A DNA stretch of 64,000 bases, taken from the IMG/VR virus record IMGVR_UViG_3300002835_000015, positions 1 through 64,000 of that record. One strand, given 5' to 3'. This document shows positions 13,486 to 34,963 of this stretch, in pieces. Numbering within the stretch: position 1 is the first letter of the stretch; each line of letters starts with the position of its first letter. A model generated the notes under the pieces. It was given only the letters and a program-made list of their open reading frames with translations, was not told the origin of the DNA and did not search any database. This stretch comes from a virus. The translations under genes and the position numbers were made by a program.

Positions 13486-14496
13486 ATGCCAATAACAGAA
13501 AGACCCAGCGATGATTTTATCGCTCTCCTACGTAAGTCAGGGGATGCCGATATCAATGTGGCTATGGCCGCTCAACGTGAGTTTGCCAAAGCACTAGAAC
13601 TCCCACTCCGTAAGGGCGTTTTAGTCGGTAATGTACTCGGTAATATTTTCGAAACCATCAATGTAGAAGCCGGTTCAACAACCGAATTCCCTCTTGATCT
13701 TATCTCCCCCGGCCTTGAAGGTGAGCATGTTGCTTACACCAATCCCGGTCACGGTAGAATTCCAGAGCGTTCGGTCGAAGGCGACTACGTGATGATTCCC
13801 ACCTACACAATCGCTTCATCGGTTGACTATCTTCTTCGCTTTGCCCGCGAAGCCAGATGGGATATCGTTGGTCGTGCAATGCAGGTGATGGAAGCCGGTT
13901 TCACCAAGAAGATGAACGATGACGGCTGGCACACTCTTCTCGCCGCTGGCGTTGATCGTAACATCCTCGTCTATGATGCTGATGCAACAGCTGGTCTATT
14001 CTCAAAGAGATTAGTATCACTTATGCAGACAGTTATGCGTAGAAACTCGGGTGGTAACTCGGCATCAGTTGGTCGTGGCCGTCTAACCGATATGTATCTA
14101 TCGCCAGAAGCTTTAGAAGACATTCGTAACTGGGGTCTAGATCAAGTTGATGATGTTACTCGTCGTGAAATCTATAATGCTGATCCAGCTGCGGCTGTTA
14201 TCACCAGAATCTTTGGCGTTAACCTACATGACCTAGACGAACTAGGCGAAGGTCAACAGTACCAGAGCTTCTTTTCAACTGACCTCGGCGGTGCATTAGC
14301 AACAGGCGGTGACGTTGAACTCGTAGTTGGTCTTGATCAGTCGAGTAATGATAGCTTTGTAATGCCCGTTAAGCAGCAGCTACAGGTATTCGAAGATCCA
14401 ACCCTACATCGTCAGCAACGCGCTGGCTATTACGGCTGGGCTGAACTCGGCTTTGGTGTTCTAGATAATCGTAGAGTGATCCTTGGCTCATTCTAA
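13486..14496 (+). CDS. Major capsid protein (HK97-fold)
   Basis: 336 residues preceded by AAGGAGAA. It has a short N-terminal helical part, the segment LVGNVLGNIFETINVEAGSTTEFPLD, a helical domain RRNSGGNSASVGRGRLTDMYLSPEALEDIRNW, and a C-terminal LQVFEDPTLHRQQRAGYYGWAELGFGVLDNRRVILGSF. This order (E-loop-like segment, spine helix, P-domain, then a strand with a hydrophobic end) is typical of HK97-fold capsid proteins, and the neighbouring protease/scaffold and decoration-like genes agree. Compared with the fibre genes it uses noticeably more C-ending codons and CGT/CTC codons, as expected for the most highly expressed phage gene. A terminator follows directly. Confidence 0.88.
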   Translation: MPITERPSDDFIALLRKSGDADINVAMAAQREFAKALELPLRKGVLVGNVLGNIFETINVEAGSTTEFPLDLISPGLEGEHVAYTNPGHGRIPERSVEGDYVMIPTYTIASSVDYLLRFAREARWDIVGRAMQVMEAGFTKKMNDDGWHTLLAAGVDRNILVYDADATAGLFSKRLVSLMQTVMRRNSGGNSASVGRGRLTDMYLSPEALEDIRNWGLDQVDDVTRREIYNADPAAAVITRIFGVNLHDLDELGEGQQYQSFFSTDLGGALATGGDVELVVGLDQSSNDSFVMPVKQQLQVFEDPTLHRQQRAGYYGWAELGFGVLDNRRVILGSF

Positions 14497-20034: not shown

Positions 20035-21235
20035 TTATGTTTGTTTAAAATCTTCTCAGATTAACCTATCTTTACATGAGATAGTGAGCGGGCCATATGA
20101 TGAGCCACCTTGTGGTGGTTTGTGCTATGAGCCTCCCACAACCACTAACACCACTATACCGCCAACCACAACTGTAGCACCAACTACCACCACGGTAGCA
20201 CCAACTACCACCACGGTAGCACCAACTACCACTACTGTAGCACCAACTACCACTACTGTAGCACCAACTACCACAACTGTAGCACCAACTACCACCACGG
20301 TAGCACCAACTACCACTACTGTAGCACCAACTACCACTACTGTAGCACCAACTACCACAACTGTAGCACCAACTACCACCACGGTAGCACCAACTACCAC
20401 CACGGTAGCACCAACTACCACTACTGTAGCACCAACTACCACTACTGTAGCACCAACTACCACTACTGTAGCACCAACTACCACCACGGTAGCACCAACT
20501 ACCACTACTCCCAATATTACAACTACCCCTCAAGCTACCACAACTCCAGTTGCTACTACTACTGAGCCACCAATTGATCCGTGCGCAATAGCCAAAATGG
20601 CGCAGGTTGGAGTTACGCCAGACGGCAAACCCATATGCTGTGCAATAGGATGGAGTTACGACCCACAAAATGGTTGTTGCCCATCCGAAGGACTATGTGA
20701 GCCTCCATATATTATTTCTAATTTTGCATCTGTAACTTTGCCACAAAATGAACTATTCGGTGCTACCCAAGAGATAACTACAAAAAAAATAATAGAAGAA
20801 ATGATTAATAGCGGTGTTAACATGGTATTAGTTGGTGGATATGCACTGAAGATGTATCATATAAATGATAATCCTAGAGATTTAGATTTTGTTTATGAAG
20901 CATCTGATGAAAACATAAGTAAAATAATAGACATTCTTGTTAACTTTGGATACGAAGAAGAAAATCTTCAAAAGATGTACAAATATAAAGATTCAAGCTT
21001 TAGACTGAAAGTTATTGTGGGCAATGATATGAGTATTGACTTTATATCTAACATTCTTAACGAAATTGATTATTATTCATTAATAAACGGGACAGTCAAG
21101 TGCAATATATTAGATGATATTAATGTAAATCTTATAAGCAAAAATGACTTGTTGAATGCATTTGAAGTTGCCTCCAAGTATAGACCACATAAGTATCAAA
21201 AATTAATTACAATCTTGAAAGATTTGTTAAAATGA
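20027..21235 (+). CDS. Cysteine-motif / TVAPTTT-stalk protein fused to a nucleotidyltransferase
   Basis: A 402-residue mosaic. Residues 1-35 repeat the Cys motif of the preceding gene. Residues about 45-180 are a Thr/Pro stalk with 16 TVAPTTT units. Residues about 185-235 are Cys-rich (VTPDGKPICCAIGW, PQNGCCPSEGLC). Residues about 250-402 look like a nucleotidyltransferase: LVGGYALKMYHI near 270, NPRDLDFVYE near 282-290, and a third acidic strand SIDFISN near 340. This is the hGG, DxD, D pattern of MNT/AbiEii-type enzymes, with all three carboxylates present, so catalytic activity is plausible. The substrate is unknown. A catalytic domain at the end of a structural stalk would be carried by or delivered from the virion if it is assembled. 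The stop overlaps the next start (ATGA). Confidence 0.7.
   Translation: MPSYVCLKSSQINLSLHEIVSGPYDEPPCGGLCYEPPTTTNTTIPPTTTVAPTTTTVAPTTTTVAPTTTTVAPTTTTVAPTTTTVAPTTTTVAPTTTTVAPTTTTVAPTTTTVAPTTTTVAPTTTTVAPTTTTVAPTTTTVAPTTTTVAPTTTTVAPTTTTPNITTTPQATTTPVATTTEPPIDPCAIAKMAQVGVTPDGKPICCAIGWSYDPQNGCCPSEGLCEPPYIISNFASVTLPQNELFGATQEITTKKIIEEMINSGVNMVLVGGYALKMYHINDNPRDLDFVYEASDENISKIIDILVNFGYEEENLQKMYKYKDSSFRLKVIVGNDMSIDFISNILNEIDYYSLINGTVKCNILDDINVNLISKNDLLNAFEVASKYRPHKYQKLITILKDLLK
20174..20509 (+). repeat. 16 copies of a 21-bp tandem repeat (TVAPTTT)
   Basis: Sixteen exact-length units of GTAGCACCAACTACC plus a six-base variable end (ACCACG, ACTACT or ACAACT) fill 336 bp. The ends run CG, CG, CT, CT, AA, CG, CT, CT, AA, CG, CG, CT, CT, CT, CG, CT, so units 2-5 and 6-9 form an 84-bp higher-order duplication. 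Because units are multiples of three, copy-number change would lengthen or shorten the stalk without frameshift. Confidence 0.95.
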
Positions 21236-24200
21236 GCTGTATATGCGGATCAATATCTATTCCGGTTGGAACCAAATACAATAAAAATGGATTTGGACTA
21301 AGAGCTTTGCATAACAGCGGCTTTACGGACTTAGAGTTAGTTCATAGTATTGATTGTGTAGTAAATAATGGAAAGAGATTTGTAACCACCTCTAAAAAGC
21401 AAAACTTTAGTAACAATATTATTGGATTTGAGATATATTGGGGTGATGGATCATTACCACTCATTCAAGATAATGTACAACTTTCTATATATGATTATAT
21501 TACAAATGAAAATTTTGGATTTATAAATATTGCATCATTAAATGAAAATGTTATATTCATACCAGTATTAATTACATCTGGATCTGATAAAAAGTTTGCA
21601 GTATCTGTTAAAAGTTTGTGCAACATTGAAACTCCAGAATGTTGTTCAAATCCAATAATAACTTTAAATCCATCAATTAACACTATTACTGTTCCATGTA
21701 TAACTGAGCGAGGACTTGTATTTCCTACTCCAGTACCAACTACTACTAGCACCAGCACATCCACTAGCACCAGTACATCCACTAGCACCAGTACCTCGAC
21801 TAGCACCAGTACCTCGACTAGCACCAGTACCTCGACTAGCACTTCTACTTCTACTAGTACTAGCACCTCGACTAGCACCACTGCTGTACCCAATTTAAAT
21901 TCTGCAAATTTTAATAGTTGTGCTGATTGGAATATTCTTAATGGTAATGTTACTACTGTTGGAAGTAATGGTCGTTCTAGTTATTATGGTACATTCGACC
22001 AAGGTGGTAATGTGTGGCAGTGGACCGATACACTTGGTAATACGACAGGTCGTTACGGAAATATTAATATTTATCTTCGCGGCGGCAGCTGGAATCTTAA
22101 TGCGTTCTACTTGACATCATCCAGTAGGAACGTGGACGATCCTTATTTCAAGCAAAGCGACATCGGTTTTCGCATTGCAAGCTCCTTCTCTACTCCTAAC
22201 CCTTTAAATTTACCTAATTTTGTTACTATAGCAAATACTGATAATAATAATGATATTACAGGTTATGGAGCTGTAAACTATATTTATAGTATAGGAAAAT
22301 ATACTGTAACCAATTGTGAATATGTTGAGTTTTTGAATGCTGTAGGCACTAATGATACTTATGATATCTACAACTCAGATATGTCAGATGATCCTAGAGG
22401 TGGTATATATAGAAATGGTATTGCTGGTAGTTGGAGGTATAGTTTTAAAACTGATATGGGCAATAAGCCTGCTGTTCATGTTACATGGTTTAATTGTGCA
22501 AGATATTGCAATTGGCTTCATAATGGTAAGTTATCTGGACCTCAAGATAGTACCACAACAGAAAATGGAGCATATCCCCTTAACGGGAGAGTTAACGGAG
22601 ATTCTGTAGCAAAAAATATAAACGCCAAATACCATATTCCCACAGAAAATGAATGGTATAAGGCGGCATACTACAGCCCGATAAAAGGAGGAGTTAATTC
22701 CCCCGGATATTATTCTTACGCCACTCAGAGCGATATTGCTCCAACTTGTGTAACAGCAAATTCTACTGGAGATGGGAGTGCTAGAACTAGCGACTATGTA
22801 TGTCCCACTACAACCACAACTAGCACTTCGACTTCAACTTCTACCAGTACAAGTACCTCTACTAGTACTTCAACCTCAACTAGCACTACTACTACCGTAG
22901 ATCCATCTACATGCACAGATAACTATTTAGTTGGAAAGTATCCATTTACCAACGCCGTAGAGTTTACTACTTCAAGTGGAGCATTATTATTTGATATATA
23001 TCTTGGTGGAACAAACTATCTTGATAATATAAACTATGTAAATAGTACAATATTGCAGCCGTGCAGTAATGTAGGAAATAGATATTATGATACAACTACT
23101 GGTAAGTGGCAAGTTAGTTTAAGACCAATATTAAGAGGCGATACAAACCATCCCCTACATATCACTATGTTTAGCTCCCCTCAAGTATTAACACTACCAG
23201 TGGGTCAAGAACAAGTTAATTATCAATATTTAATCAAAGTTTCTGGAGGCATATTTGAAATTCCAAACAATTTTATCGCACCCCAAATAAATAGTCAAAA
23301 TTATGATATATCTCTGTTCAAACCCACTGATAGTATCGCGGCAGCATTATTATTAAAGACGCAAAGCGATGTTTATGGTTTAAAATTACCACCAAGTGAT
23401 GGCTATTTTGGAAATATTACTAAACCAAATTACTATACAATATCCAAAGTGGTTGGGAATGTGCTTCCCGGTATAAGCGAAAGCACACTGTCTTCATGGA
23501 CAAATAAATTATCTACTGACAATACTAATTCTGGAGTACTTTATTTAAAGTGTTCTTCTCAAGATCCATTTCTATGCTGTTGGGACAATCCTAGTAATAA
23601 TTATTTTTCAAACTCAAGTAGTGATTGCGGTAAAACTTATTATCCACCATACAATCTTTCAAGAACAAATTCTGTTGATGTTCCTCATAATCCATATATA
23701 TATCCAAATGTAATCAATTATGCACCCCCATCAGCATCTGGAAAAATATGCCCTTACGATAGTGACTATCAGCCCGTCAATCTTTCCAATAGAATAAAAA
23801 TTACAATACCTAACGACCCAGTATTTAGCGGTGTATACGTATTTGATAAATTTGGTAGTAATCTAGATTGGAGATTAAATACTACGGATAGTACTACAAA
23901 TCCATATACTATAAGTTTTCAAGAATTTACGCTTGGTGATAGTAAATATAGAGAATACTTCTATGCTGATGGATCAAATCTTTCTTCGACATATGCTTTT
24001 CCCGCCAAATTTCTTATGACACTTCACCTATCTCCAGTAAATGATAGCGTAGTTGGAACTGGACATAGGGCTGCTGTTGGATTCACACTACCCATACGCT
24101 ATAGAAAACCATATCAAGATTGGGTTGTTGTAGATAGAGTATCACATGGAATTTATGGAAATGATAAAAATTATGGCTATATAAATACTGCCGGAAATGA

Positions 24201-24861
24201 TATAGAACTTATTGGTGATGAAGTCTGTAGTGGCATACCAGAGTTTGGTTTTGGTTATAGGGTTTCTGCTCTAGGGTTGGGATGGAATAATGTATCTAGA
24301 TTTATCGGTCCTGACATATTTATAGGATATGAAGGATACTATACAGATCCAACATATCCAGAAGCTCCGTTTTATGAACCAAAGATACCAATGCTAGCAG
24401 ATGTAGAGTTTGTATATTCTTGCCGACCCAATAATTGTTCAAGTTATGTAAGTCTTCCAGATGCTACATACTCTTCAGCAGTATTTAGTGATAACCCATT
24501 ATGCGGGTGTACAATTAGTAACTTTGTTGATTGCAACGGTAATGTTGATAGCGACACTATTTATGACAATATCAATGTATATGCAATATTTAATTCTAAT
24601 GCTGGCTATCAATACTATCGATTTTCTTTAAATAGAATATCTATTCCACCAATATCAGAAACATCTAAAGTTTTAGTATATAGTGTTAATTCTTCTAATA
24701 GTAGTACAGATAATAGAGTCATAAATGCAATATCTCAAACAATACAAAATAATTTTCAATATGGCTCTACTTACCCAGATCCCATAAATATAGATATATA
24801 TTTACAAGCAAATGGTAATAACTTAGATGTATTTATTTATCCCTCAGATGAAGATCAATAA
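21232..24861 (+). CDS. Large tail adhesin with circularly permuted FGE/C-type-lectin domain
   Basis: 1209 residues in a four-base overlap with the upstream gene. Residues 1-170 are a beta-rich N-terminal domain with CIC and ECC motifs. Residues 172-218 are a Thr/Ser linker. Residues about 226-315 match the C-terminal half of formylglycine-generating-enzyme-type domains (YYGTFDQGGNVWQW, then LRGGSW and DIGFRIAS). Residues about 329-522 match the N-terminal half (FVTIAN, GYGAVNYIYSIGKYTVTN, NKPAVHVTWFNCARYCNWLH, IPTENEWYKAAYYSP). The usual order is therefore reversed. A second Thr/Ser linker lies at about 525-556, then about 650 residues of unrecognised, Cys-containing beta-rich sequence. This fold presents variable ligand-binding surfaces in phage adhesins, so receptor binding is more likely than sulfatase modification. 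Confidence 0.75.
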   Translation: MSCICGSISIPVGTKYNKNGFGLRALHNSGFTDLELVHSIDCVVNNGKRFVTTSKKQNFSNNIIGFEIYWGDGSLPLIQDNVQLSIYDYITNENFGFINIASLNENVIFIPVLITSGSDKKFAVSVKSLCNIETPECCSNPIITLNPSINTITVPCITERGLVFPTPVPTTTSTSTSTSTSTSTSTSTSTSTSTSTSTSTSTSTSTSTSTSTSTSTTAVPNLNSANFNSCADWNILNGNVTTVGSNGRSSYYGTFDQGGNVWQWTDTLGNTTGRYGNINIYLRGGSWNLNAFYLTSSSRNVDDPYFKQSDIGFRIASSFSTPNPLNLPNFVTIANTDNNNDITGYGAVNYIYSIGKYTVTNCEYVEFLNAVGTNDTYDIYNSDMSDDPRGGIYRNGIAGSWRYSFKTDMGNKPAVHVTWFNCARYCNWLHNGKLSGPQDSTTTENGAYPLNGRVNGDSVAKNINAKYHIPTENEWYKAAYYSPIKGGVNSPGYYSYATQSDIAPTCVTANSTGDGSARTSDYVCPTTTTTSTSTSTSTSTSTSTSTSTSTSTTTTVDPSTCTDNYLVGKYPFTNAVEFTTSSGALLFDIYLGGTNYLDNINYVNSTILQPCSNVGNRYYDTTTGKWQVSLRPILRGDTNHPLHITMFSSPQVLTLPVGQEQVNYQYLIKVSGGIFEIPNNFIAPQINSQNYDISLFKPTDSIAAALLLKTQSDVYGLKLPPSDGYFGNITKPNYYTISKVVGNVLPGISESTLSSWTNKLSTDNTNSGVLYLKCSSQDPFLCCWDNPSNNYFSNSSSDCGKTYYPPYNLSRTNSVDVPHNPYIYPNVINYAPPSASGKICPYDSDYQPVNLSNRIKITIPNDPVFSGVYVFDKFGSNLDWRLNTTDSTTNPYTISFQEFTLGDSKYREYFYADGSNLSSTYAFPAKFLMTLHLSPVNDSVVGTGHRAAVGFTLPIRYRKPYQDWVVVDRVSHGIYGNDKNYGYINTAGNDIELIGDEVCSGIPEFGFGYRVSALGLGWNNVSRFIGPDIFIGYEGYYTDPTYPEAPFYEPKIPMLADVEFVYSCRPNNCSSYVSLPDATYSSAVFSDNPLCGCTISNFVDCNGNVDSDTIYDNINVYAIFNSNAGYQYYRFSLNRISIPPISETSKVLVYSVNSSNSSTDNRVINAISQTIQNNFQYGSTYPDPINIDIYLQANGNNLDVFIYPSDEDQ
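21745..21834 (+). repeat. Five copies of an 18-bp Thr/Ser-coding repeat
   Basis: Five consecutive 18-bp units (ACTAGCACCAGYACMTCS) encode TSTSTS. The last three are identical. The low-complexity Thr/Ser tract extends to about 21880 and forms the linker before the permuted lectin-like domain. Confidence 0.9.
22020..22195 (+). other. Variable-region-like segment of the lectin-type domain, locally G+C-rich
   Basis: This stretch encodes the C-terminal core of the FGE-type fold, from the end of NVWQWTD through RGGSW to IGFRIASS. By hand count the part from about 22077 is close to half G+C, while the flanks are strongly A+T-rich. It uses codons rare around it (CGC, GGC, GCG, AGC, GAC). In diversity-generating retroelements the variable region sits in this part of the fold. 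No template repeat or reverse transcriptase is visible in the window. Confidence 0.4.
22806..22897 (+). repeat. Second Thr/Ser-coding linker repeat
   Basis: A low-complexity ACN/AGY/TCN tract encodes a TTTTTSTSTST-type linker directly after the permuted domain. Together with the tract at 21745 it brackets that domain on both sides. Confidence 0.85.
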
Positions 24862-31344: not shown

Positions 31345-32628
31345 ATGCCACTTTCAAATAATGCTAGAATTTTCTACGCTTGTCAGGCTGTAGCACTTGA
31401 GCCACTAAATTCTGTCACTGCTACTGGCGTGACAACACTTTCAACTGTAAATCCAACTAATTCGAATGCAAAACATAGTCAAGGTGTACAGATATTACAC
31501 GGCGTTCAGAGCGTTGGCATCAACACAACATTCAATCTAGAACAAGTCTTTGAACTCGGTCAAATCCACATTTATGAAAATATTGAAGGCGTACCCGATA
31601 TTGAAGTCACCTTAGAAAAGGTTCTTGATGGTTACCCCTTAATGTATCATGTGGCATCTACTGCTGTTCAAGCTGACAACTCGTTAACAACTCCAGCCGC
31701 TAAAGCAGCTCTTGTAGCAAGAACCAAACAGCGTTGCAATGCTATTTTAGGTATTTATTCTGATACAGTTTCTCATATTGGGGATGGTAATACAGCCACT
31801 AATGACACAGTAGAAGTTTTGATGAGTGGTATGTATATTAGTAGTATTGGATATACAATCCCTGTAGATGGCAATGCGACCGAATCTCTCACACTTGTTG
31901 GTAATCACAAGCAGTGGAATTTGACTCCAAGTAAGTTTAATCCAACTTTAGCTCGACAGTTAACTTCTGGCAATGCTCCTGCGGCTCCGTTTGAAGATGG
32001 GCCGGGTAATTTTAATAGTACAGCTTTTAGAGGCGGTGTACAAAGAAGAGAAAACGTTGCGTTAAATAAGTCTATTCTACCACAGTCAATCAACGGTGTT
32101 AGGCAGAATACTAGTCCCGGTAACGCTTGGTCAACTACACTAAATGTCACAGGCGTACCACTTGTGCATCTTCAGAATGTTAATATCAGTTGCTCTCTTA
32201 ATAGAGAAAGTGTTCAAGAACTTGGAAGAAAAGCTCCATATACTCGTTATGCCAACTTCCCAGTAGAAGTTACTTGTGAAATTGAAGCAATAACAACTTC
32301 TGGAGACTTTGTTCAAGCTTTAGAAGAAGGTCTAAAGGCCAATCCGCCGGGAGATCCTAATGGTCAATTTAATGTTGGTCAAGCAAATTATGGCAACAAT
32401 ACTAAGAATGAAAGAATTAGAATTGTTTTACATGATGGAACCATAATAGACCTTGGTAGTAAAAATAGACTATCATCTATTAATTATACTGGCGGTGACG
32501 CTGGCGGTGGTAATGCTACTGTAACTTATAGTTATAGTACATATAACTCCCTAAGTGTTCTTCATCCAAATGATCCAGCAAATGTTGCAGCAACTGATTT
32601 TGGTGGATTTTTCTATAATGGTCAATAA
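31345..32628 (+). CDS. Putative major tail tube protein
   Basis: A 427-residue protein with GGAGAGAA upstream and its own promoter-like element and downstream hairpin, as expected for an abundant structural protein. The N-terminal segment GVQSVGINTTFNLEQVFELGQIHIYENIEGVPDIEVTLEKVLDGYPLMYH and the repeated beta-strand pattern to the end (IRIVLHDGTIIDLGSKNRLSSINYTGGDAGGGNATVTYSYSTYNSLSV) are seen in tube proteins of large tailed phages. It is larger than classical tubes (about 150-250 residues), so one or two extra domains are likely. It is followed directly by chaperone-like genes and the tape measure, the usual order. No sheath-like gene accompanies it. Confidence 0.65.
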   Translation: MPLSNNARIFYACQAVALEPLNSVTATGVTTLSTVNPTNSNAKHSQGVQILHGVQSVGINTTFNLEQVFELGQIHIYENIEGVPDIEVTLEKVLDGYPLMYHVASTAVQADNSLTTPAAKAALVARTKQRCNAILGIYSDTVSHIGDGNTATNDTVEVLMSGMYISSIGYTIPVDGNATESLTLVGNHKQWNLTPSKFNPTLARQLTSGNAPAAPFEDGPGNFNSTAFRGGVQRRENVALNKSILPQSINGVRQNTSPGNAWSTTLNVTGVPLVHLQNVNISCSLNRESVQELGRKAPYTRYANFPVEVTCEIEAITTSGDFVQALEEGLKANPPGDPNGQFNVGQANYGNNTKNERIRIVLHDGTIIDLGSKNRLSSINYTGGDAGGGNATVTYSYSTYNSLSVLHPNDPANVAATDFGGFFYNGQ

Positions 32629-32666
32629 TCAATAGTATTTATTTTTAGGATTTTTAAGGAAACAAA

Positions 32667-32708
32667 ATGAAACTCCCGCTTGTGAGAAAGCTGTATGAAG
32701 CATCATGA
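32667..32708 (+). CDS. 13-codon leader ORF overlapping the chaperone-like gene
   Basis: The ATG at 32667 follows AAGGA with good spacing and encodes MKLPLVRKLYEAS before a TGA at 32706-32708. The ORF overlaps the first codons of the next gene in another frame and lies inside a strong hairpin. Three explanations fit: a regulatory leader peptide coupling translation to the next start, the true start of the next gene followed by a frameshift, or a chance ORF. Confidence 0.35.
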   Translation: MKLPLVRKLYEAS

Positions 32709-32720
32709 GCGGGAGTTTTT
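32670..32720 (+). terminator. Hairpin with T tract enclosing a start codon
   Basis: AAACTCCCGCT (32670-32680) and AGCGGGAGTTT (32708-32718) form a perfect 11-bp stem, followed by TTTTT-CG-TTT. The 27-base loop contains GAGAAAG and the ATG at 32695 of the next gene. It looks like a terminator for the tail-tube transcript, but with an unusually long loop. It could also regulate translation of the downstream gene, or act as a partial terminator that sets the ratio of tube to chaperone-like mRNA. Confidence 0.65.
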
Positions 32721-33726
32721 CGTTTCTATGATAAGGTCTGGCAAAGTATTCATAAGTCATAAGGATATAGATTTAGAAATATACCCACTAACACTTGATC
32801 AATCTTTCAAATCTTGCCAAGTATATCAGAAAGCCTACGATAAAGCATATTCTGAAGAAATAATGACAGAAGAGGATATGGATCAATGGATGATGGAAAA
32901 TGAACTTTGGACACTGCACGATGATAAGAAGGAGGAAGGACTCAAAAAAGACATTGAAAGACTAAAAGTAGAAATCTACAACGCTAGAGATAATGCTATG
33001 CTAGCTAGTAATTTAAGAAAATATATACGGGCGGGCGAAGCTCAAATAACATCTCACCTAAATAAAAAGTATATATATCATCAAAATACTTGCGAAGGCA
33101 TTGCTTCTTCTGAAAGGTTAGCTTGGATAATAAAAAATACGACATACTTCAATGGTAAGCTCTATAATTTTGAAGAATTGTCGTTGCAATACGTTGTAGA
33201 TGAATGGCAGTCGCACTTTATTTCAGAAAGTAAATCTAGAGAATTAGCTAGAAATGACCCTTGGAAATCGTTATGGGTCACTAGAGAAAGTTCTGGCTTT
33301 ACACTTTTTGCAAATCCGCCAAATACCGAATTAACTTATAACCAAAAGAATATTTTAATTTGGTCACAAATGTATGATAATATTCAAGAGTCTATGGAAT
33401 GTCCAAACAAAGAAGTTATAGAAGATGACGATATGCTAGACGGTTGGTTTATTATTCAGCATAAGAAGAGAGAGAAGGACAGGGTAGAAAAAGAATTCGA
33501 AAATAGCACTAAAAACGAAAAAATTAAGAATGCACCAGAGGTATTTGTTGTTGCCAGCAAAGAAAAAGCAGAAAAAATTAATGATATGAATGACATGAAT
33601 GCTAAGATGATAAAGCACCAAAGAAAACTCGCCCTTGATCGTTATGGATCTTTAGACGAGCAAAATCTACCGGATCAAAGAAGAAACATACAGGCCATGG
33701 CTAATAATCAAAACAGAGGAAAATAG
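32695..33726 (+). CDS. Tail assembly chaperone-like protein A
   Basis: A 343-residue, highly charged helical protein. The centre (IMTEEDMDQWMMENELW, then a long Lys/Glu helix DDKKEEGLKKDIERLKVEIYNARDN) aligns with the 292-residue gene at 34085 (IMTKKELEKFMKEQGIW, then a similar helix), so the two are paralogues. The position between tube-like and tape-measure genes is that of tail assembly chaperones, which bind the tape measure during tail building. The start is uncertain: ATG 32695 has only GAGAAAG in front and sits in a hairpin loop, and ATG 32728 is an alternative. The C-terminus is Lys/Gln/Asn-rich. The usual -1 slippery heptamer is not seen at its end. The chaperone role is inference. 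Confidence 0.5.
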   Translation: MKHHEREFFVSMIRSGKVFISHKDIDLEIYPLTLDQSFKSCQVYQKAYDKAYSEEIMTEEDMDQWMMENELWTLHDDKKEEGLKKDIERLKVEIYNARDNAMLASNLRKYIRAGEAQITSHLNKKYIYHQNTCEGIASSERLAWIIKNTTYFNGKLYNFEELSLQYVVDEWQSHFISESKSRELARNDPWKSLWVTRESSGFTLFANPPNTELTYNQKNILIWSQMYDNIQESMECPNKEVIEDDDMLDGWFIIQHKKREKDRVEKEFENSTKNEKIKNAPEVFVVASKEKAEKINDMNDMNAKMIKHQRKLALDRYGSLDEQNLPDQRRNIQAMANNQNRGK

Positions 33727-34084: not shown

Positions 34085-34963
34085 ATGTCGCAGGATAAGG
34101 AAAAGATCGTTGATGTTAAAACTACAAGAGATGGTAAAGAAGAAACAACTAAAATAGTTGTAAAACGCCCAAGTAGTTCAGTAATTTCTCAGGCGCAAAG
34201 AGTCGGAGCCAAAGCTTGGACTGATTGCGTTCGTGATGGGATTATGACTAAAAAGGAACTAGAAAAGTTTATGAAAGAACAAGGTATTTGGGACGAAGGC
34301 AAAGACGAAGAACAAAAGAAGGTAATTCAAGAGATTGCAAATCTTGAAAGAAGTCTATATGTGAGTGGAAATGCAGGGAAAAAGCTTAAGGCTTCTGAAG
34401 GCAAAAACATTGCTATTCAGATGAGAATTAAGAGAAATGAGCTTAGAGACTTAATTGCTGAGAAAATGAGCCTTGAGCAAAATACCGCAGAATCCATTTC
34501 TGATAACGTAAGATTTGACTACCTTGTTGCTAGTTGCACTTATTATGAAAATGGTCAGAAAGTGTATAATGATCTAGATGACTATAAGGAAAGATCTGAT
34601 GATCAGATCGCTTTTAGCGCAGCTTCTAGTCTAGCATCCATGATGTATTCTGTAGATAAGGATTTTGAGGCCAAACTGCCAGAAAACAAATTCCTTAAAA
34701 TGTTCCATTTTGTGGATGATAATCTAAGCTTGGTAAATGATAAGGGCGAAACAGTAGATACAGACGGTAAGAGAATAGATAAGCAAGGATATTGGCTTAA
34801 TGATGAAGGCAAGAGAGTAGATAAAGATGGCAATGTTCTTGATGAAAATGGCAATTATGTCCCTACCGTAACATATGTAGACGACGAGGATAAAGAAGTA
34901 AAAGTAGAAGAAACAGAAAAACCCGCTAAGAAAAAGAAGTCAACAGCAACGGATAGTGAATGA
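34085..34963 (+). CDS. Tail assembly chaperone-like protein B
   Basis: A 292-residue helical protein with CTGGAGGAAACC upstream. Residues about 35-170 share with the gene at 32695 the helix, IMT(K/E)(K/E)-x-x-x-x-(F/W)M-x-E-x-x-(I/L)W and charged-helix pattern, so it is a paralogue. The C-terminal part has short acidic repeats with alternating VD/ID and DG/EG (TVDTDGKRIDKQGYWLNDEG, then KRVDKDGNVLDENGNYV) and ends in a Lys-rich tail. It lies 33 bases before the tape measure. Repeated D-G turns are common in phage tail chaperones of large myo- and siphoviruses, but the function here is inferred. There is no catalytic motif or membrane segment. Confidence 0.5.
   Translation: MSQDKEKIVDVKTTRDGKEETTKIVVKRPSSSVISQAQRVGAKAWTDCVRDGIMTKKELEKFMKEQGIWDEGKDEEQKKVIQEIANLERSLYVSGNAGKKLKASEGKNIAIQMRIKRNELRDLIAEKMSLEQNTAESISDNVRFDYLVASCTYYENGQKVYNDLDDYKERSDDQIAFSAASSLASMMYSVDKDFEAKLPENKFLKMFHFVDDNLSLVNDKGETVDTDGKRIDKQGYWLNDEGKRVDKDGNVLDENGNYVPTVTYVDDEDKEVKVEETEKPAKKKKSTATDSE

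Follow-up and report, generated by a model that had tools for sequence, protein, structure and literature searches.

How can a gene be expressed when its start codon is enclosed in the loop of a stable hairpin? The question is raised by a locus in the window, the 64,000-nucleotide stretch of viral DNA that we analysed, which is part of a 158,798-base virus record. The initial annotation had described, behind a tail-tube-like gene, a perfect 11-bp stem with a T tract, the left arm of which lies inside a 13-codon open reading frame (ORF) with a ribosome-binding site, and the loop of which holds the start codon of a gene of 343 residues. Each of these features was recovered (Table 1); the leader ORF and the main gene overlap by 14 nt in the window. 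The 121-nt region folds at −38.7 kcal/mol (z = −4.75; none of 200 shuffles reached so low a value), and the 62-nt element, at −28.3 kcal/mol, is within the lowest 0.05% of the 62-nt segments of the 64 kb. Among 29 gene starts it is by far the most structured, the next lowest of the other 28 being −18.5 kcal/mol.

Table 1. Features of the hairpin locus, with examples of the second structured RNA of marine relatives (positions are those of the window unless a locus is named)
Feature	Position	Strand	Basis or detail
Tail-tube protein by predicted fold, 427 aa, upstream gene	31345-32628	+	AlphaFold model against solved tail tubes
Leader Shine-Dalgarno site, AAGGA	32656-32660	+	Sequence; matching place in hairpin-bearing relatives
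Leader ORF, 13 codons, MKLPLVRKLYEAS	32667-32708	+	ATG 32667, stop TGA 32706-32708
Left arm of perfect 11-bp stem, AAACTCCCGCT	32670-32680	+	Pairs with AGCGGGAGTTT
Right arm of perfect 11-bp stem, AGCGGGAGTTT	32708-32718	+	Pairs with AAACTCCCGCT
Outer helix P1, left arm, AACTCCCGC	32671-32679	+	Pairs with 32709-32717
Inner helix P2, left arm, TTGTG	32680-32684	+	Pairs with 32704-32708
P2 and P1 right arms, CATGA GCGGGAGTT	32704-32717	+	Codons His4-Glu5-Arg6-Glu7-Phe8
Weak Shine-Dalgarno-like GTGAG of the main gene, within the hairpin	32682-32686	+	Alignment A3; GAGG in most relatives
Start codon ATG of the 343-residue gene, apical loop	32695-32697	+	Sequence; folds of relatives
T tract behind the GC-rich stem	32716-32720	+	Sequence
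343-residue gene, between tube and tape-measure genes	32695-33726	+	Sequence, protein searches
Second structured RNA, examples	L054:4889-4946, L067:4893-4949, L115:936-986		Alignment A5; 24 other loci

The assignment of the upstream gene to a tail tube is borne out by its predicted fold. The AlphaFold model of the 427-aa protein, of moderate confidence, matches the tubes of SH-Ab15497 (E 4.8e-9), P74-26 (E 3.1e-7) and T5 (E 3.7e-7), and a homologue of the tube gene is found upstream in 23 relatives aligned. Downstream of the 343-residue gene come ORFs of 110 and 292 residues, and then a tape-measure-like protein of 2307 residues. The 343-residue protein itself has no PHROG or Pfam match, and its fold has no counterpart in PDB or BFVD at E ≤ 0.001, which leaves the chaperone-like function that had been given to it unconfirmed; to call it a chaperone is a guess resting on gene order.

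Protein searches returned 78 viral loci, most of them 35-100% identical, and four loci in metagenome-assembled genomes (MAGs). At least 57 distinct phage loci have the hairpin element ahead of this gene. A covariance model found a single place per record in 23 hairpin-bearing records, always at this gene start, and the five further loci obtained with it, which had not been fetched via the protein, all have a leader and all encode the N-terminus of this gene. Further copies were sought in the phage's own record and none was found; comparison with Rfam yielded nothing credible for the window region (best E 3.8, under the gathering score) and no match at E ≤ 1 in five relatives. The hairpin is absent from about nine distant relatives, of which four or five have an ordinary terminator there. 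Relatives with a simple start and no hairpin, which the initial annotation had named as evidence against its reading, thus exist, but only at 37% identity or less. Isolated phages yielded no relative of the 343-residue or the tube protein by tblastn. The four matches from genome collections carry the MAG labels SAR202, Micavibrio and Verrucomicrobiales; they may result from wrong binning, and no host assignment was obtained from them. One locus, L079 (3600-3680), lacks the left arm and the loop with the start codon, in comparison with the near-identical L077 and L080; this gap may be a real deletion or may have arisen by an assembly slip at the hairpin.

We analysed selection on the hairpin in alignment A3, whose 52 sequences are the basis of the pair and codon counts. 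Firstly, the two arms change together. Standard pairs fill 90% of the 884 pair cells, 9 of the 17 pairs show changes on both sides, and double changes fill 49 cells, compared with 23 in shuffles and no more than 17 when the partner is slid. RNAalifold, an independent prediction, gives 14 pairs, 8 of them with compensatory changes. The outer helix P1 is 97% paired over the 52 sequences, with both-side changes in four of its nine pairs, and the inner helix P2 has covarying and G-U pairs at columns 28-57, 29-56 and 31-54. The C-G pair at columns 17-65 becomes A-U in L074 and U-A in L081; it is also U-A in L187, a locus found via an unrelated DNA pattern, in which Glu7 is GAA. Secondly, the codons that form the right arm are constrained beyond the amino acids that they encode. 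Arg6 is CGG in 51 of 52 loci where 1.0 is expected (CGG makes up 1.9% of the Arg codons in these genes), and Glu7 is GAG in 50 of 51 where 14.6 are expected (GAG usage, 29%). Codon bias is absent at Lys2 and Gln3, and the hairpin-less loci L092 and L155, which have no left arm but keep Arg6, use AGA. Judged by this codon choice, the right arm, inside the gene at codons 4-7 and most strongly at Arg6, is held at the RNA level. Thirdly, of the pairs that are retained, many are G-U, and this on the + strand only; the score of the covariance model is 63.9 bits for the + strand and 24.4 bits for the − strand. The object of selection is therefore the + strand RNA.

The alignment with relatives, which had been proposed as a check, finds the stem conserved with covariation and the leader likewise kept, with its frame and its peptide varying. 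A leader that enters the left arm from an ATG or GTG just upstream, preceded by a Shine-Dalgarno site, is present in 49 of 57 loci (44 of 52, and five of the five further loci; the script counted 43 of 52 because the left arm of L069 was mis-set). After shuffling of the spacers, such a leader occurs in a mean of 7.5 and a maximum of 16 of the 52, numbers to be read with the reservation that comparisons across loci are not phylogenetically independent. An inverted repeat that arose by chance or acts at the DNA level, with the leader a by-product of the AT-rich spacer, in which short ORFs are common, is very improbable: leaders are far more frequent than in the shuffles, and the G-U pairs and the model score favour one strand.

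The leaders have 4-17 codons, encode unrelated peptides and are found in all three frames (0, 1 and 2) relative to the main gene. Their frame switches repeatedly on the protein tree, also between close lineages, as in L057/L060, in L070/L074 and in L066/L071 versus L090, and parsimony counts 20 changes over all leader states, with absence of the hairpin counted as a state. These observations bear on whether the leader and the main ORF form one protein, through frameshifting, bypassing or a sequencing error. The leader of the window is indeed one frame off the main ORF. Programmed frameshifting or bypassing entails a fixed frame relation; the relatives have leaders in every frame, many of which end before the main start. 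A missing base fusing the two frames, the other finding that had been named as fatal to the initial reading, is very unlikely, since the sequence around the main start is identical to the window in three assemblies from other samples (L001, L002 and L008). We therefore rejected fusion, bypass and sequencing error, given the varied frames, the early stops, the unrelated peptides and the three identical assemblies, and regard a single recoded protein as hardly credible.

The position of the leader stop is, in contrast to its frame, confined. Across the 52 loci, every leader that reaches into the arm has its stop at −18 to +11 nt of the main start, near or overlapping it, and none stops in the right arm; 9 end in an AUGA overlap, 4 in UAAUG and 20, the window included, in a TGA at +11. 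AUGA and UAAUG overlaps are the commonest spacings of coupled genes (PMC12548453). Frames that would read through the right arm are available: 19 of 57 loci have no stop in the main frame between the left arm and the gene, and L088 and L115 each have a different frame that passes the right arm. None of these 21 locus-frame cases is used by a leader. Frame and peptide thus vary while the leader and its stop before the right arm persist, which argues that what is kept is the act of translating the left arm.

An upstream ORF is not found in every member. Eight of the 57 loci, forming one freshwater group, have no working ATG leader: the hairpin is kept, with a mean opening cost of 21 kcal/mol at the main start, and the position of the leader start reads ATA or ATT or, in L044, ATG-TAA. 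ATA or ATT at this position, with the Shine-Dalgarno site and the hairpin retained, was seen in L009, L014, L043, L045, L046, L047, L049, L050 and L051. Near-cognate initiation at these codons would fit by spacing, but the frames of L043, L045 and L047 would enter the main gene, and they were therefore not scored as leaders. The existence of this nearer clade, with a hairpin but without a leader start codon, indicates that the leader is not indispensable everywhere. It also fits a translational operator, in which a phage or host protein would bind the hairpin and repress the downstream gene, perhaps autogenously, the leader being secondary. The core CUCCCG/CGGGAG is near-fixed beyond what pairing requires, and the AUGAGG segment is also conserved beyond pairing, so that sequence-specific recognition, by a protein, is possible. 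An operator predicts neither a kept leader of varying frame and peptide nor the placement of its stops, and we consider it quite unlikely as the main function.

The predicted accessibility of the main start bears on the role of the leader. In naked-RNA predictions, opening a 30S footprint at the main start costs 16.2 kcal/mol in the window and a mean of 15.2 kcal/mol over the leader-bearing loci, while 28 other gene starts average 7.8 and reach 13.2 kcal/mol at most; if the left arm is taken up, as it would be by a ribosome on the leader, the predicted cost in the window drops to 4.8 kcal/mol. The predicted hairpin covers the ribosome-binding site of the downstream gene, and its left arm is read by the leader. 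We consider it probable that the element is a cis-acting device of translational coupling, in which the start is silenced by the hairpin until ribosomes on the leader open the stem. The unfolding of RNA is an established route of coupling, akin to attenuation (review PMC12548453). From the comparison, the element is real and conserved, and it is, as we interpret it, a new form of translational coupling.

The hairpin, its covariation, the constraint at the RNA level, the conservation of the leader without that of its peptide and the placement of its stop are read directly from the sequences, and they suggest the following order of events. The hairpin would fold over the main start and silence the 343-residue gene. 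The leader, with its strong and exposed ribosome-binding site, begins just upstream of the stem and would be translated through the left arm, and its ribosome would open the stem and terminate within about 20 nt of the enclosed start. Either the same ribosome would then reinitiate, or a new 30S subunit would load while the stem is open. For fresh loading, the internal GAGG of most loci can serve; the clade of the window has the weaker GAGA instead (A3) and would therefore depend more on the leader ribosome. After the leader ribosome has passed, the hairpin would re-form, since translation of the leader never extends into the right arm. The 343-residue protein would in this way be made at a low, set level relative to the tube protein. 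Besides the clade without a leader start and the near-fixed core, a further feature speaks against coupling: in the window and many relatives the leader ends 11 nt beyond the main start, and such an overlap is less usual. The idea that leader ribosomes melt the stem and thereby control the next gene, put forward in the initial annotation, has nevertheless gained good comparative support from the covariation, the kept leader and the stop placement.

The same annotation had linked leader translation to transcription termination. The stem and its T tract would then be a partial intrinsic terminator behind the tube gene, and ribosomes on the leader would set the read-through. The stem is GC-rich, as that of an intrinsic terminator, and at least five T in 8 nt follow it in 52 of 52 loci. 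The mean in these 8 nt is 6.1 T, slightly above the 5.7 obtained by synonymous shuffling with each gene's codon usage (0 of 2000 runs reach the observed mean) and against 2.0 in the rest of the genes. The T tract is thus conserved, but its richness comes mostly from the Glu-Phe/Tyr-Phe codons: the hairpin-less loci L092 and L096 also have six T in eight. The tails of the marine members, TATTTTGT or TACTTTAT, likewise count against a terminator. Separate terminator-like hairpins between the two genes were found in four of eight hairpin-less loci scanned (L099, L100, L102 and L103), versus 1 of 61 hairpin loci. The scan extends stems greedily and misses a further terminator, in L155, seen by eye. 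Another terminator scan, limited to loops of 8 nt, does not list the hairpin of the window, owing to that limit. As terminators occur mainly in hairpin-less loci, the two devices look like substitutes; this pattern and the T excess make an added attenuator role plausible. Termination leaves unexplained why the start codon lies in the loop and why the leader stops beside it, and attenuation as the main function is, in our judgement, fairly unlikely.

Marine members with a gap of 93-158 nt have another structured RNA between the tube gene and the leader. It consists of a freely covarying stem around invariant GCGAUAGC and GCRAGU, with GGA between. In alignment A5 (27 sequences) it has 66 double-change cells against 26 in shuffles, and it is 87% paired, against at most 44% when slid. 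This second RNA is absent from the window, and a search of five relatives against Rfam gave no match for it at E ≤ 1. It also precedes the simple start of L097 and, weakly scored, that of L155. In the latter, hairpin-less locus (1717-1996), a terminator-like stem GGGGCTGG/CCAGCCCC TTTT is followed by the second motif and by a simple start in which Arg-Glu is AGA GAA. It is possible, and we propose it tentatively, that the hairpin and leader represent a phage regulatory RNA of a new class. A compact, sequence-specific hairpin around the start codon would be gated by a leader whose peptide does not matter; the hairpin would replace the terminator of some relatives, set the ratios of tail proteins at initiation and, in marine members, work with this second, also undescribed, structured RNA just upstream.

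Several known systems resemble the element in part. In the coat-lysis pair of MS2 and the VII-IX pair of f1, the next start is likewise silenced by an RNA structure, which ribosomes of an upstream frame open (PMC12548453). There, however, the upstream frame is a real gene, whereas here it is a short leader without a conserved peptide; in addition, the start here lies in the apical loop of one compact hairpin conserved in sequence. In tap-repA1 of IncFII plasmids, translation of a short leader, and not its peptide, opens the stem over the next start. The likeness lies in this use of a short ORF; tap-repA1 serves plasmid copy control with an antisense RNA, whereas the target here is a phage tail gene. 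In attenuation of the trp type, leader translation controls transcription, and the hairpin with its T tract and the leader overlapping one arm recall the present arrangement. In contrast to the trp type, we saw no regulatory codons, no conserved stall peptide and no alternative antiterminator hairpin at this element, and the start codon is enclosed. Tailed phages need many tube subunits and few helper proteins from adjacent genes, and in systems of the lambda G/GT type a programmed frameshift of the tail assembly chaperones sets the protein ratio. Here, too, a ratio would be set between the tube and the tape-measure genes, but the element would do so where translation of a separate gene is initiated, and its leader may be in any of three frames. 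It would thus be a third way of setting such ratios, in addition to terminators and programmed frameshifts. It also offers a clean natural example of selection to translate a short ORF irrespective of the peptide, through many frame changes, and so bears on uORF-type control in bacteria. Its conservation makes the left arm, the leader start, the leader stop and the enclosed start separately testable, and the element gives access to a large group of uncultured phages that match almost nothing among isolates.

Three other proteins of the window deserve mention. In one genome, the 292-residue protein resembles, at 34199-34570, residues 42-158 of the 343-residue protein (27% identity, E 1.9e-7), a weak similarity that perhaps reflects an old duplication. 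The capsid-like protein of 336 residues (13486-14496) shows a distant similarity (23%, E 6e-6) to the Bacillus phage G major head protein, the sole match in a search of isolated phages. Finally, a protein of 1209 residues (21232-24861) has, by eye, long (ST)n tracts between domains that look like the formylglycine-generating-enzyme type.
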